Source: Acidobacteriota bacterium
Lineage (GTDB): Bacteria > Acidobacteriota > Vicinamibacteria > Vicinamibacterales > UBA8438
DNA: 64,000 nt
Direction: 5' to 3'
Assembly: GCA_009838525.1 (NCBI GenBank)
Contig: VXRJ01000018.1
Span: 186,001-250,000 of the forward strand
Part shown: positions 6,629 to 11,871 of the stretch, one piece after another
Layout of the letters: each line of letters opens with the position of its first letter
How positions within the stretch are numbered: the first letter of the stretch is position 1
Made by a program: the position numbers and the translations under genes
The notes under the pieces: generated by a model
Databases searched by the model: none
What the model saw: the letters and a program-made list of their open reading frames with translations, nothing else
What the model was told of the DNA's origin: nothing

Positions 6629-6863
6629 GCCTTTGTCGTGCTCGGAATCCTTCGCAGTCCCCACGGAATCAAAGCCGCCTCCGGGGTGGAAGAACGCGTG
6701 GCCCGTTTCGGCAGCATTGAAACAGAAGTCCGGCGAACCGTGCAATCCGCCACCCGTTTGCTATGATTTTTTCCGAAATCGGCACGCCGAGACTGCCGCC
6801 GATGCTCAACACAATGACGGGCCGTACGACAAGCCTCGGGCTTTCCTCGGCGAGGAATCGGCC

Positions 6864-8123
6864 GTGAGTGAGTCCCCGTGGTGGCGAATCGGCTGGCGCA
6901 ACCTCGGCCGCAATCGCAAGCGCACTGCCCTGACCGCGCTGGGACTCGCGATCGGCTACTTCGCGGTGGTGCTCATGATCGGCTGGGGCGAGGGGATGGT
7001 CGCCGAGCTGATCGAGAACTCCACCTCGCTTGTGAGCGGCCAGATCGAAATCCACGATGCGGGTTATCGGCCCGAACGCAGCCTGTACGACACTATCGGC
7101 GGGCGCGATGGCGCCGATGTGGAGGAGTTGCTGAACACCATAGGGGCGGACCCCTCCGTCGTGGCGGCCGCCCCGCGAGTGTATGCGGGCGCGCTTCTCA
7201 GTTCGGGGGACTCCACACGGGCGGGTGTCCTGCTGGGAGTCGATCCGGAACGCGAGGTCGCGCTGACACGTTTCCTCGATCCGCTCGTCGCGGGACGGCT
7301 GCCCGCCCCTGGCGCCTACGAAGTGGTCGTGGGCGAGGAAATGGCGCGGCAACTCGCGATCGGCGTCGGGGATGAGCTCGTTGTCGTCGCCTCCGCCGCG
7401 GACGGGTCGATGGCCAACGACCTGTACGGCGTGACGGGCGTCTTCCGGACCGGCTTGATCGAATTCGATGGGAGCACCGCCGTGATGCCCATCGGAGACC
7501 TGCAGATCCTGGTGGCGTTCGATGCGGGTCGTGTCCACGAAATCGCTGTCTCTACCATCGATCCGGCGGGAGCCGCCGTCACCGCGGGGCGGCTTGCGGA
7601 CGCGATCGGCGCCCCGGATCGCGAGATCGCCGTCGCCGCCTGGAACGAGCTCAATCCCGTGCTAAGCCAGTATGTGGCGCTTGCCGATGGCGTGTACTGG
7701 ATCTTCATCGTGGTCATCTTCGGGGTCGCCTGTCTGGGGGTTGCGAACACGATGCTCATGGCCACTTTCGAGCGCCGGCGGGAGTTTGCGATCATGCTGG
7801 CCCTGGGAGCGAAGCCGTGGTCGGTAGTTGGCGCCGTGCTGTCGGAAGCGCTGGCGCTGGGCTTCCTGAGCCTCGCTATCGGCGCCGTCCTCGCGCTGCC
7901 TCTGATGGTGTGGTTTTCCGTCGCGCCGGTAAGTCTGGAAGGGCTCTTCCAGGACGTTACTCTCGAGGGAGCGCTGGTGACTCCCACCCTGCGGGTTGGG
8001 CCAAACGTGCCTCTCTGGACCTGGGCAACCATCGGGTTGCTCGTGTCAGCGGTCGTCGCGGCGTTCTATCCCGCGGTCCGGACCTCGCGGGTTCCCCCCG
8101 CCGATACGCTGTCGGGGCTGTAG
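6864..8123 (+). CDS. FtsX/MacB-type ABC transporter permease (1)
   Basis: Integral inner-membrane subunit of a type VII (MacB/LolCE-like) ABC transporter, 419 aa. One N-terminal membrane segment (about 23-43) is followed by a large periplasmic MacB-PCD-like domain (about 50-270). Three C-terminal segments then form the FtsX domain (about 280-305, 330-360, 390-410), with the typical NTMLMATFERRREFAIMLALG motif region at the domain start. The GTG start at 6864 has a CGAGGA site upstream. It precedes a homologous permease by 13 bp. No ATP-binding subunit is adjacent, so the ATPase must be encoded elsewhere. A LolCE-like role is conceivable given lolA nearby, but this is inference. Confidence 0.88.
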   Translation: MSESPWWRIGWRNLGRNRKRTALTALGLAIGYFAVVLMIGWGEGMVAELIENSTSLVSGQIEIHDAGYRPERSLYDTIGGRDGADVEELLNTIGADPSVVAAAPRVYAGALLSSGDSTRAGVLLGVDPEREVALTRFLDPLVAGRLPAPGAYEVVVGEEMARQLAIGVGDELVVVASAADGSMANDLYGVTGVFRTGLIEFDGSTAVMPIGDLQILVAFDAGRVHEIAVSTIDPAGAAVTAGRLADAIGAPDREIAVAAWNELNPVLSQYVALADGVYWIFIVVIFGVACLGVANTMLMATFERRREFAIMLALGAKPWSVVGAVLSEALALGFLSLAIGAVLALPLMVWFSVAPVSLEGLFQDVTLEGALVTPTLRVGPNVPLWTWATIGLLVSAVVAAFYPAVRTSRVPPADTLSGL

Positions 8124-8136
8124 CAGGAGGCGGGAG

Positions 8137-9405
8137 ATGCACATCCGGGTCCTCGTGCTGCTGGCCATGCGCAACCTGCGCCGCCATCTGCGGCGCACGG
8201 CGCTGACCGGATCAGCGATGGCGGTCGGCGGCGCGGTGATGGTCTTTTCGTTCACGCTCGACGACGGCAGCCACGAACAGTGGATTGACTCGGGAGTGCG
8301 CTTCGGCAGCGGGCATGTGACGGTAGAGCGTCCCGAGTTCCGGATGAGCCGCCAGATCGACGACCGGTTGACCGCCGATACCCGGCGGGCCGCGGAACAG
8401 GCGCTGAGCGCTCCTGAGATGGCGTCGCACGTTGTCGCTACCTCGGCCCGACTCAGCATCAACGGTCTCGCGAGTTCGGCGGCGGGGGCCCGCCCCGCGC
8501 AGATAGTCGCCGTCGATCCGACCGCGGAATCGGAATTCGGCGTGCTCGACGAGCAGCTCGTCGAGGGGCGTTACCTGGAACCTGGCGACGAGCTGGCCGC
8601 CTTTGTAGGCGTGGGTCTGGCCGCCAGCCTGGACTTGGACCTGGGATCGCGTTTCGTCGTCCAGGCCCAGGACACCGAGCGCGAGATCGCCGGCCAGTTG
8701 CTGCGGGTCGTCGGCATCTTCCGGAGTGGCCTGCCGGCCGCCGATCAGACGATGATCCAGATCCCGCTGGACACTGCGGGAGAGTGGCTTCAGTCAGCGA
8801 ATGACGTCACGAACGTGGGCGTCGTGCTGGATGACAACGGCGCCACCGGGCGGGTCGCCGAAGGACTGGAGCAGGCATTGGCCGGTCCGATAGCCCGCGG
8901 AGAAGTGCGGGTGATGGAGTGGAGAGAGTCGGATCCGGCGCTGGCCGGAGCCATTGCGATGGACTCTTTCGGCAACTACGTGATTCACGGGTTCCTGTTC
9001 GTCATCATCGGTTTCGGTATCGTGAACACCGTGCTGATGTCGGTAATGCATCGCAACCGGGAGTTTGGCGTGCTGCAGGCTCTGGGACTGACGCCGGCCG
9101 AGACCGCCGCCGTCGTGTTGGTCGAAGGTCTCACGCTGTCCGCCGCGAGCGGTCTGGTGGGCGTCGCGGTGGGGCTGCTCGGCATGTGGTACTTCCTGGG
9201 CGATGGGCTCGACATGACTGCGGTCATGGGCGAGCTGACCTTCGCGGGCGCTGTTGTCGATCCGGTCATTGTTCCCCTGTTCCTGCCCGGGACTATCGCC
9301 GGGATCACGGCGTTCATCCTGTGCATCGGCATCGTGGCTTCGATCTATCCCGCGTGGCGCGCAACCCGTATCGACGTCACCGAGGCGATGAAGTTCGACC
9401 GGTAG
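8137..9405 (+). CDS. FtsX/MacB-type ABC transporter permease (2)
   Basis: Second permease, 422 aa, with the same architecture as its neighbour: an N-terminal membrane helix after RNLRRHLRRTALTGS, a periplasmic domain, then three helices starting at GFGIVNTVLMSVMHRNREFG. An AGGAGG ribosome site lies 6 nt before the ATG. The pair could form a heterodimer as LolC/LolE do. The substrate cannot be inferred from sequence alone, and no ATPase or membrane-fusion protein is linked. Confidence 0.88.
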   Translation: MHIRVLVLLAMRNLRRHLRRTALTGSAMAVGGAVMVFSFTLDDGSHEQWIDSGVRFGSGHVTVERPEFRMSRQIDDRLTADTRRAAEQALSAPEMASHVVATSARLSINGLASSAAGARPAQIVAVDPTAESEFGVLDEQLVEGRYLEPGDELAAFVGVGLAASLDLDLGSRFVVQAQDTEREIAGQLLRVVGIFRSGLPAADQTMIQIPLDTAGEWLQSANDVTNVGVVLDDNGATGRVAEGLEQALAGPIARGEVRVMEWRESDPALAGAIAMDSFGNYVIHGFLFVIIGFGIVNTVLMSVMHRNREFGVLQALGLTPAETAAVVLVEGLTLSAASGLVGVAVGLLGMWYFLGDGLDMTAVMGELTFAGAVVDPVIVPLFLPGTIAGITAFILCIGIVASIYPAWRATRIDVTEAMKFDR

Positions 9406-9453
9406 TGCACTGGTTACAATTGACTGCTCGAAGCACGAACCCTGGAGGCCGCC

Positions 9454-11871
9454 ATGGCGCAGGATAGAGCGGAACCGAACATCCAGGCTCCGACTGGCTC
9501 CACGGCGAAGGTCGTCGAACCCTCCCTCGGGAACGCGCTTCCTCATTTCATCCCGCTGACGGTCTTTCCGCTCATGTTAATGGCGGCGAGCTACGGCGGC
9601 TGGTGGCTCGCGGCCCCGGTCGCCTTCTTCATGCTCGCGGACCGTTTCGACCAGGCCTTCGGGGTGGAAGAACGGAACATGGATCCTGACGCGACCCGCG
9701 AAGGACAGTTGTTCCCGTACAAGCTGTCCCTCTGGTTGTGGGCATCGTGCTGGCCGGTGGTTTTCGTCTTCTCGCTCTGGCAGATGTTCGTCGCCGGCCA
9801 CCTGTCCGCATGGGAAATCGGTTTGATGGCGGGCCTGCTGACTGGCGTGGGACAGTCAGTGTTCATTGTCGGCCACGAACTCGTGCACCGGCGGGCCTCG
9901 TGGGAACGCCGTTTCGGGGAGTTCCTGCTGGCGTCGGCATCCTATCCTCAGTATTCGACAGAGCATGTCTATCTTCACCACCCTCTCGTCTGCACCCCCG
10001 GGGATCCCGGTTCCGCGCCCAAGGGAGTGAGCTTCTGGAGTTATCTGCCTCCGGAAGTGACCAACAACCTGCTCGGGGCCTGGCGCTTCGAGCGCGACCG
10101 GCTGGCGCGCCGCCACCTGCCGGCGTGGCACTACACGAACGCGTTCTGGCGGTACCTCGTGCTACTCGCCTTCTGGTACTCGCTGGTGTACTGGATAGGC
10201 GGCGCTTGGGTCGCGCTGACTTACGCCGTTCTTTGCGGCAGCGCGGTGTTCTCGATGAAGCTCAGCAACTACGTCCAACACTACGGGCTGCGCCGCGTTC
10301 GGCTTCCGGGAGGCCGATACGAACCGGTCCAGGCGCGGCATGCCTGGAGCGCCGCCTACAAGTTCACGAACTGGCTCTACTACAACATGCAGCGTCACGC
10401 CGATCATCATGCGGCGTCGAACCGGCGCTATCCCCTGTTGCAGCATCACGGTGCGGACGCCTCCCCGCAACTGCCAGGCAGCTACATCCAGATGAACGGC
10501 ATGGCGATGTTTCCGAAGCGCTGGTTCGCGACGATGGATCCGCTGCTCGATCTCCAGCGCGCCCAGTTCTACCCGGAGATCGATGACTGGAGCGCCTATG
10601 ACAGTCGCGCTTTTGCCGAACGTCCCGAAGCGTACGAAGAGATTGCCGAGATTCACGGCGCCGCGCCTCGTATCGCAGGGTGGATCAACCGGTCCCCGAA
10701 ACTGCTCGACAGCCTCCGGGACCGGGAATTCACCGAGCTCGATCTGCCGGACGGTTTCGGACCGGATCCGGAATTCGAGATGATCGCCCGCCGCGGCCTG
10801 GCGCGCGTCTACTGGACGCTTGAGTACGGTGTCACCGAAATGAAGGAGCAGCTTGCCGATATTCCGGCGCAGGACAGCCGGGAGGCGGTCGAGGTGGCGC
10901 TGGAATGGTCAAATCGCAAGGTTTTCCAGATTGCCGTGCATACGATGCGGGGCAGCCTGTCGCCCTCCGAGGCCGCCACGGCGCTGTCGAATGTCGCAGA
11001 GGCTTCGATCGCCACGGTGTTGTCGGCGGTGGAGGAGGATCTGGCTGACCGGGGCGGGCCGCCGGCCGGAGGTGGGGTTGCGGTTGCGGTGGTGGGCGCC
11101 CTGGCCAGCCGGGAAGCGGCGCCTGGCGCCGAGCTCGGTGTTCTGTTCGTGTCCTACGGAGCCCCGGCGGACTACTACGAGGCGCTCTGCCGCAAGTGCG
11201 GCGAGGCGATCCGTGCGCTGTCGCAAGGCAACCTGCTGCTGAGCCCTCTTCCGCGCGACTGGAACGTGGGCGCCGTCCCTTCCCTTGACGAGTTCGTGGA
11301 GCATCACCGCACGGCGGGCACCCCCGACGAACTCCTGGCACTGACCCGTGCGCGGTGCGTATTCGTTTCCGGGGACAGCGGGATCGGGACGCGGTTCGAG
11401 TCGGCGCGGCGGGAGGTACTGGCTCAGGGCGCGGCGCGTGAATCGCTTATCGCCTCGTCGAGTGTGCCGGACGAGAGTGCGGTCGAACCCGGCCTGCTGT
11501 CCATTGAGGAGATGCGCGGCGGTTTCCGGGACATCGAACGCGCCGCCCTGCTTCTGCGGTTGAGGTACCCCATCGATGCGCCGGACATGCTGGCTCCGGA
11601 CGCGGTTTCTGTCTTCCGGGCGGCCGGGAAGCGCGGGCTTATTGCCGCTGATGTCGCGGATCGGCTGGTCGGCGCCGCGACGATGTGGCGGAACGTGCGA
11701 GGTTCGCTGCGGCTGGTCGCCGAGGATGGCGGCGGGGTCGAGACGGCGGGTCCAAGGGTGAAGGCCGTAGTCGCGCGCGCCTGTGGGCTGGACGATTTCG
11801 ACCAACTTGACGCTGCGATCCGGGGCACGGCTTCCCGCACGGCAGCCGCCATCGATGCGCTGGCGGCCTGA
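9454..11871 (+). CDS. Fusion: AlkB-like membrane di-iron monooxygenase + GlnE-like adenylyltransferase half
   Basis: 805 aa, start supported by TGGAGG before the ATG. Residues 1-390 are an integral-membrane alkane-hydroxylase/desaturase-type domain with all its histidine boxes: HELVHRR (141-147), EHVYLHH (170-176), NYVQHYG (272-278) and QRHADHH (313-319). Several hydrophobic segments surround them. Residues about 440-805 resemble one catalytic half of glutamine-synthetase adenylyltransferase. The order is a helical lead-in, a nucleotidyltransferase-like strand (VVGALASREAAPGAELGVLF, 547-566), LLALTRARCVFVSGD (627-641; GlnE has ALxRARxVAGD), RGGFRDIERAA (688-698; GlnE RGPGGIRDIEF), and C-terminal helices (722-759). 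Where GlnE has SDLDL, this reads AELGV, so the metal-binding acidic pair is gone. No rubredoxin or ferredoxin gene is adjacent. The function of the fusion is unknown. The hydroxylase assignment is firm at superfamily level, and the GlnE relation is motif-based. Confidence 0.8.
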   Translation: MAQDRAEPNIQAPTGSTAKVVEPSLGNALPHFIPLTVFPLMLMAASYGGWWLAAPVAFFMLADRFDQAFGVEERNMDPDATREGQLFPYKLSLWLWASCWPVVFVFSLWQMFVAGHLSAWEIGLMAGLLTGVGQSVFIVGHELVHRRASWERRFGEFLLASASYPQYSTEHVYLHHPLVCTPGDPGSAPKGVSFWSYLPPEVTNNLLGAWRFERDRLARRHLPAWHYTNAFWRYLVLLAFWYSLVYWIGGAWVALTYAVLCGSAVFSMKLSNYVQHYGLRRVRLPGGRYEPVQARHAWSAAYKFTNWLYYNMQRHADHHAASNRRYPLLQHHGADASPQLPGSYIQMNGMAMFPKRWFATMDPLLDLQRAQFYPEIDDWSAYDSRAFAERPEAYEEIAEIHGAAPRIAGWINRSPKLLDSLRDREFTELDLPDGFGPDPEFEMIARRGLARVYWTLEYGVTEMKEQLADIPAQDSREAVEVALEWSNRKVFQIAVHTMRGSLSPSEAATALSNVAEASIATVLSAVEEDLADRGGPPAGGGVAVAVVGALASREAAPGAELGVLFVSYGAPADYYEALCRKCGEAIRALSQGNLLLSPLPRDWNVGAVPSLDEFVEHHRTAGTPDELLALTRARCVFVSGDSGIGTRFESARREVLAQGAARESLIASSSVPDESAVEPGLLSIEEMRGGFRDIERAALLLRLRYPIDAPDMLAPDAVSVFRAAGKRGLIAADVADRLVGAATMWRNVRGSLRLVAEDGGGVETAGPRVKAVVARACGLDDFDQLDAAIRGTASRTAAAIDALAA

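Follow-up and report, generated by a model that had tools for sequence, protein, structure and literature searches.

A predicted AlkB-type membrane monooxygenase fused to a putative GlnE-derived pseudo-adenylyltransferase half, and its association with srp-type proteusin genes

The fusion gene and its locus

The window, that is, the whole stretch of 64,000 nucleotides of an Acidobacteriota genome that was analyzed, holds at 9454-11871 on the forward strand one uninterrupted ATG-to-stop frame of 805 aa, with a Shine-Dalgarno-like GGAGG 5 nt 5' of the ATG (9444-9448, +). Profile searches, an AlphaFold2 model and structural comparison assign the product as an AlkB-type membrane monooxygenase (residues 21-383; 9514-10602, +) joined to a putative pseudoenzyme form of the GlnE adenylylation half (residues 375-805; 10576-11868, +). 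The model, computed with 56 homologues as input (pLDDT 85.3, pTM 0.82), matched AlkB over residues 21-383 and a GlnE half-fold over residues 375-805, both far above the next family. A sequence-only reading of this DNA had described one 805-aa frame in which a hydroxylase runs into a GlnE-like region; the frame is indeed single and intact, and the structure prediction proposed there recovered both folds.

Relatives of the fusion numbered 187 in a scan of GTDB species genomes. In each of the 80 relatives among the matches listed, a single frame (646-833 aa once trimmed) encodes the fusion, and in these public loci no stop interrupts the AlkB/GlnE junction, near residue 400, where, by the sequence-only reading, a stop in related genomes would have pointed to an assembly error. 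Within the GTDB family of the window the fusion is present in three genomes, namely the window genome, G005 (two copies) and G017. No viral relatives were found in IMG/VR, and the only two plasmid relatives were ordinary full-length alphaproteobacterial GlnE genes, which were used in the tree described below. A match to a PHROG tail-tape-measure family was judged to be a chance similarity of helical sequence.

Two permease genes lie 5' of the fusion, both with uncertain start codons: a MacB/FtsX-type ABC permease (6708-8123, +; PF12704, PF02687) and a second FtsX-type permease (8137-9405, +; PF02687) that ends 48 nt before the fusion. The pair (6708-9405) has no adjacent ATPase; homologues also adjoin the fusion in loci L031, L045 and L101.

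The AlkB domain

The N-terminal half matched Pfam FA_desaturase in a profile search (E 1.1e-23), and AlkB was its only match among solved structures (phmmer E 2.1e-49 for 8f6t and E 8.6e-40 for 8sbb). Residues 21-383 of the predicted model share the fold of Fontimonas thermophila AlkB-AlkG (8f6t; Z 34.5, 351 residues, 3.1 A) and of FtAlkB (8sbb; Z 33.0), with 28% and 25% identity, respectively, and all His motifs in common. These motifs, all on the forward strand, are His box 1, HELVHR (residues 141-146; 9874-9891); His box 2, EHVYLHH (170-176; 9961-9981); the HYG motif, NYVQHYGL (272-279; 10267-10290); and His box 3, QRHADHH (313-319; 10390-10410). In the alignment, both histidines of box 1, the three of box 2, the three of box 3 and, its variable position excepted, NY.QHYGL are conserved in 81/81 homologues. 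Since all nine histidines are invariant, the diiron centre is probably intact and this half is probably an intact membrane diiron monooxygenase. The complete histidine-box membrane hydroxylase of the sequence-only reading is thereby upheld as AlkB.

Rubredoxin is the usual electron donor of AlkB, and the enzymes of this family act on alkanes and fatty acids. In AlkB-AlkG the C-terminal partner is a rubredoxin, whereas in the window fusion it is the GlnE half, in a RiPP gene context. A motif search of the neighbourhood revealed no rubredoxin near the fusion. The Pfam rubredoxin PF00301 was absent in 9/9 fusion genomes tested (the control was positive in 7/14 known genomes); MAG incompleteness cannot account for all nine, though a divergent donor could escape the profile. 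This makes it unlikely that the enzyme is a canonical alkane hydroxylase driven by rubredoxin, bearing in mind that the sequence definition of the AlkB family does not strictly include the electron donor. The phylum has few other AlkB relatives; they are stand-alone proteins of about 350-425 aa and only 28-39% identical. A second, stand-alone AlkB/xylM-like desaturase is encoded about 4 kb 5' of the fusion in genomes of the sponge sulfur-oxidiser type (L066:5422-6630, L078:5089-6306, L080:4969-6117 and L085:5635-6843).

The GlnE half

The profile search suggested by the sequence-only reading gave a significant GlnE match for the C-terminal half (PF03710, 38.6 bits, gathering cut-off 24). NCBIfam PRK14108 was matched with E 5e-26, in alignment with about positions 637-979 of its 986, and the GlnE adenylylation domain 3k7d was the only match among solved structures (E 2e-6). 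In the model, residues 375-805 share the complete half-fold with the AR half 1v4a (Z 31.1, 390 residues, 3.8 A) and with 3k7d (Z 29.2, 366 residues, 3.5 A). The fusion has one GlnE half only (90.7 bits versus the curated two-half cut-off of 724), and the window genome also encodes a separate full GlnE of 1035 aa.

In a first tree, which had no alphaproteobacterial GlnE, an AR or AT origin of the fused half was left open, and Acidobacteriota GlnE was matched better by the AR half. Adding the GlnE of Tistrella and Pseudorhodobacter resolved the origin towards AT: the fused half groups with alphaproteobacterial AT halves (support 100/99), in a tree where proteobacterial GlnE is represented by the Tistrella and Pseudorhodobacter rows only and the fusion branch is long (1.43). 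An HMM of the fused half scored 130.7 bits on the AT half of Tistrella GlnE versus 11.9 on the AR half. The tree thus places the fused half as a derivative of an alphaproteobacterial GlnE adenylylation half, and the GlnE-like half of the sequence-only reading stands on profile, fold and tree alike.

The catalytic residues have fared differently from the fold. In the window protein the GxLGSRE..xxSDLDL motif is replaced by the degenerate nucleotidyltransferase motif GALASREAAPGAELGV (residues 548-563; 11095-11142, +), while GGFRDIE is kept (residues 689-695; 11518-11538, +). When 81 homologues were aligned to Tistrella, LGS was found to have become LAS in 81/81, the signature Gly having changed to Ala. 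The first catalytic Asp is Asp in 0/81 (E in 34, A in 20, T in 11, others in 16), and the position is A, T, G, R, K, P, S or M in 47/81; the third Asp and the first Arg of RLRP are likewise found in 0/81. The second Asp is kept in 59/81 and GGxxDxE in about 65/81. Of the nucleotidyltransferase strand and RGGFRDIE claimed earlier, then, the strand and GGFRDIE are present and the catalytic residues of the strand are gone. Unlike the GlnE enzyme, the fusion is without the catalytic acids and RLRP, has a single half and is joined to a membrane oxygenase. Judged by these motifs, the GlnE half is a predicted catalytically broken pseudo-adenylyltransferase that would perform no nucleotide chemistry. 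The loss of GlnE's metal and triphosphate motifs in all 81 homologues makes the nucleotide-binding module proposed in the sequence-only reading unlikely.

The conservation profile points to another part of the half. Conservation in the helical sub-domain (residues 376-525; 10579-11028, +) is roughly on a par with that of the AlkB domain and is lower in the nucleotidyltransferase motif and beyond; this sub-domain is the proposed docking region. Thirteen homologues, in two tree clades, end at 646-730 aa and are thus shorter by the C-terminal 100-150 residues; part of the GlnE half is therefore dispensable. Taken together, the conservation profile, the shortened homologues and the motif pattern are easier to reconcile with a scaffold or docking role than with catalysis. 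The shortened fusions are of the Gemmatimonadota type, apparently in two separate clades (L062, L067, L068, L073, L075-L077, L082, L083, L088, L090, L101 and L102), and have lost the GGxxDxE region or the C-terminal helices.

Association with srp-type proteusin genes

Genes that recur beside the fusion encode a YcaO cyclodehydratase with a leader-binding domain (TIGR03604, TIGR03882), NHLP precursors, an NHLM peptidase exporter, HlyD, an MMPL transporter, a Trp halogenase, a squalene-cyclase-like protein with an NHLP leader and a 372-aa protein. An srp core marker is present in the stretch around the fusion at 73/82 loci and was not found within the stretch examined at 9/82. At 39/82 loci an SrpC-like YcaO lies directly 3' of the fusion on the same strand. 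Precursors ending in LCCCW, LCCCG or similar were found in 41 fusion loci, and a Trp halogenase in 20.

Published srp clusters comprise an SrpE precursor with the core LCCCW, an SrpC YcaO and a brominase, SrpI (PMC10286304 and PMC10858898, both citing Nguyen et al. 2021, JACS). These two accounts describe SrpE, SrpC and SrpI and mention no hydroxylase or desaturase. With these clusters the fusion loci have in common the LCCCW core, the YcaO cyclodehydratase, the Trp halogenase (in the 20 loci) and their occurrence in sponge MAGs of many phyla. Some srp-like cores end in LCCCG, LCCC, LCCCT, LCCCL or LCCCGF instead of LCCCW (L046, L047, L049, L057, L062, L066, L070, L078, L080, L081 and L085), so the site of Trp bromination or prenylation is absent there; some cores have no Trp although a prenyltransferase-like gene is present.

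The 372-aa neighbour (L139:12491-13609, -; G000:C32:80496-81608 in the window genome) has homologues in about 50 loci and no significant Pfam match among the 28 members searched. Its AlphaFold model (pLDDT 91.6) resembles ABBA aromatic prenyltransferases (MpnD, Z 17.0; CymD, 15.4; 6-DMATS, 15.2), and the Foldseek matches listed were all members of this class, PatF included. Identity to these enzymes is about 9-13%. The modelled fold suggests an ABBA indole prenyltransferase, though a shared fold is no proof of activity, and suggests that srp products may be prenylated; it bears on the pathway and not on the fusion itself. The squalene-cyclase-like protein, seen in 40 loci (for example L139:15957-17264, -, and L071:19838-21136, -), combines an NHLP leader-like N terminus with a squalene-hopene-cyclase-like domain (a weak PF13243 match). 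Class II cyclases carry DxDD; this protein has DLDST at that position.

In the window genome the fusion and the srp cluster are unlinked, on contigs C18 and C32, respectively. In the C32 cluster, genes for YcaO, for the 372-aa protein and for the squalene-cyclase-like protein accompany that of a precursor ending in ITEEQLEAISAGLCCCW, with the SrpE core LCCCW; the slot between the squalene-cyclase-like gene and YcaO, which is the usual position of the fusion, is without one. Such unlinked fusions are common. Among the genomes that have one, YcaO occurs elsewhere in 14/15 and the 372-aa prenyltransferase-like protein in 33/36, these genomes having been picked mostly because the partner gene was not near the fusion. 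Across the 396 genomes of the phylum examined, the fusion, a close YcaO (76%; next best 38%) and a strong match to the 372-aa family are all confined to the window genome; the fusion is absent from the 395 others.

By submitter label, the 80 listed relatives (of 187) span eight phyla and are mostly sponge-symbiont MAGs, an origin read mostly from record names. The jk18x names denote Ircinia MAGs (PMC9531527), and for the Spongia_Bin9, lac_sponge, Porisulfidus, RHO, IRC and COS records a sponge origin was inferred from the names. Phylum labels change 12 times on the fusion tree against a minimum of 7, and the window sequence nests beside Gemmatimonadota. This pattern suggests that the fusion has moved between phyla by transfer; mis-binning of MAGs and paralogy are also possible.

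Discussion

The reading that we favour, with moderate confidence, is that the fusion is a tailoring enzyme of a sponge-symbiont srp-type proteusin pathway, in which an AlkB oxygenase is coupled to a pseudo-adenylyltransferase docking module. The most likely target of the AlkB half would be an aliphatic group of the core peptide of the modified proteusin: the isoprenyl chain supplied by the predicted prenyltransferase, or the invariant Leu of the core. A peptide-tailoring role rather than alkane degradation is probable because the fusion occurs with srp genes in bacteria of eight phyla, mostly from marine sponges. Several observations count against this reading: the window copy lies apart from the srp genes of its genome, nine of the 82 loci showed no core marker in the stretch examined, thirteen homologues do without the end of the GlnE half, and some cores have no Trp to accept a prenyl group although the prenyltransferase-like gene is there.

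For the GlnE half, a protein-binding function is plausible, and its most likely form is a putative cytosolic dock that would retain at the membrane oxygenase either a partner enzyme or the folded precursor of the proteusin. Proteusin leaders carry a folded helical bundle (PMC10858898). The halves of GlnE evolved to act on a folded protein, and together these two points make docking a reasonable proposal. PMC10858898 also states that SrpI uses no RRE domain, which means that other solutions for leader binding exist in the srp pathway.

The fusion might instead oxidise membrane lipids or hydrocarbons for the symbiont, its position in RiPP clusters being incidental. Such a role would agree with the alkane and fatty-acid substrates of the family and with the window copy, which lies outside the cluster and beside lipoprotein/lipid-type FtsX permeases. 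We consider it unlikely in view of the srp linkage and genome-wide co-occurrence across phyla, the lack of rubredoxin in the nine fusion genomes and the absence of the fusion from the other genomes of the phylum. The plain lipid or alkane hydroxylase of the sequence-only reading is disfavoured on the same grounds, as the fusion follows the proteusin pathway across eight phyla.

GlnE responds to PII and glutamine, and the fused half could be a regulatory sensor for a nucleotide or a nitrogen signal protein (PII) that sets hydroxylase activity. The preserved GlnE fold and the partly kept GGxxDxE and second Asp would allow this, but the uniform loss of the triphosphate and metal motifs and a biosynthetic neighbourhood, with nitrogen-regulation genes absent among the recurrent neighbours, make a sensor improbable. 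It is less credible still that the half remains active as a nucleotidyltransferase and modifies the peptide, perhaps at a hydroxyl that AlkB has introduced. The 34 homologues with E at the first acid position and the 59 with D at the second could be cited for it; yet the first acid is never Asp and is non-acidic in 47/81, the third acid and RLRP are absent, the Gly to Ala change is universal, and the whole C-terminal part is missing in 13 homologues. A merging of two genes by assembly or annotation was rejected with near certainty: nothing was found in its favour, and the same fused frame recurs in all 80 listed loci from independent assemblies and in G005 and G017 of the window's own family.

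The tailoring and docking reading can be extended to a more specific proposal that we regard as speculative and put forward only tentatively. The GlnE adenylylation half would have become a precursor-recognition module on a rubredoxin-independent AlkB, which would oxidise the isoprenyl group on a thiazoline proteusin before the NHLP-leader squalene-cyclase-like protein acts, in a meroterpenoid-style RiPP pathway common to sponge symbionts of many phyla.

The srp cluster family is already known. For its AlkB-GlnE member, and for AlkB in a RiPP pathway, we found no account in the searchable open literature; the founding srp paper may list the gene under another name. The sequence-only reading, which knew of no described AlkB-GlnE pairing, agrees with this within the same scope. 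Clusters of the srp type are widespread in the microbiomes of sponges, but their products remain cryptic. Since the fusion adds an oxygenase step and its neighbour a likely prenylation step, the predicted product would be more than a brominated thiazoline peptide. A dead nucleotidyltransferase reused as a dock would be new enzyme biology, as would an AlkB that works without rubredoxin.

Additional RiPP precursors with NHLP leaders lie outside the srp clusters, two of them in the window genome (G000:C18:619800-620449, L141; G000:C18:439474-439866, L142) and one in G017 (G017:C57:5320-6495, L143).
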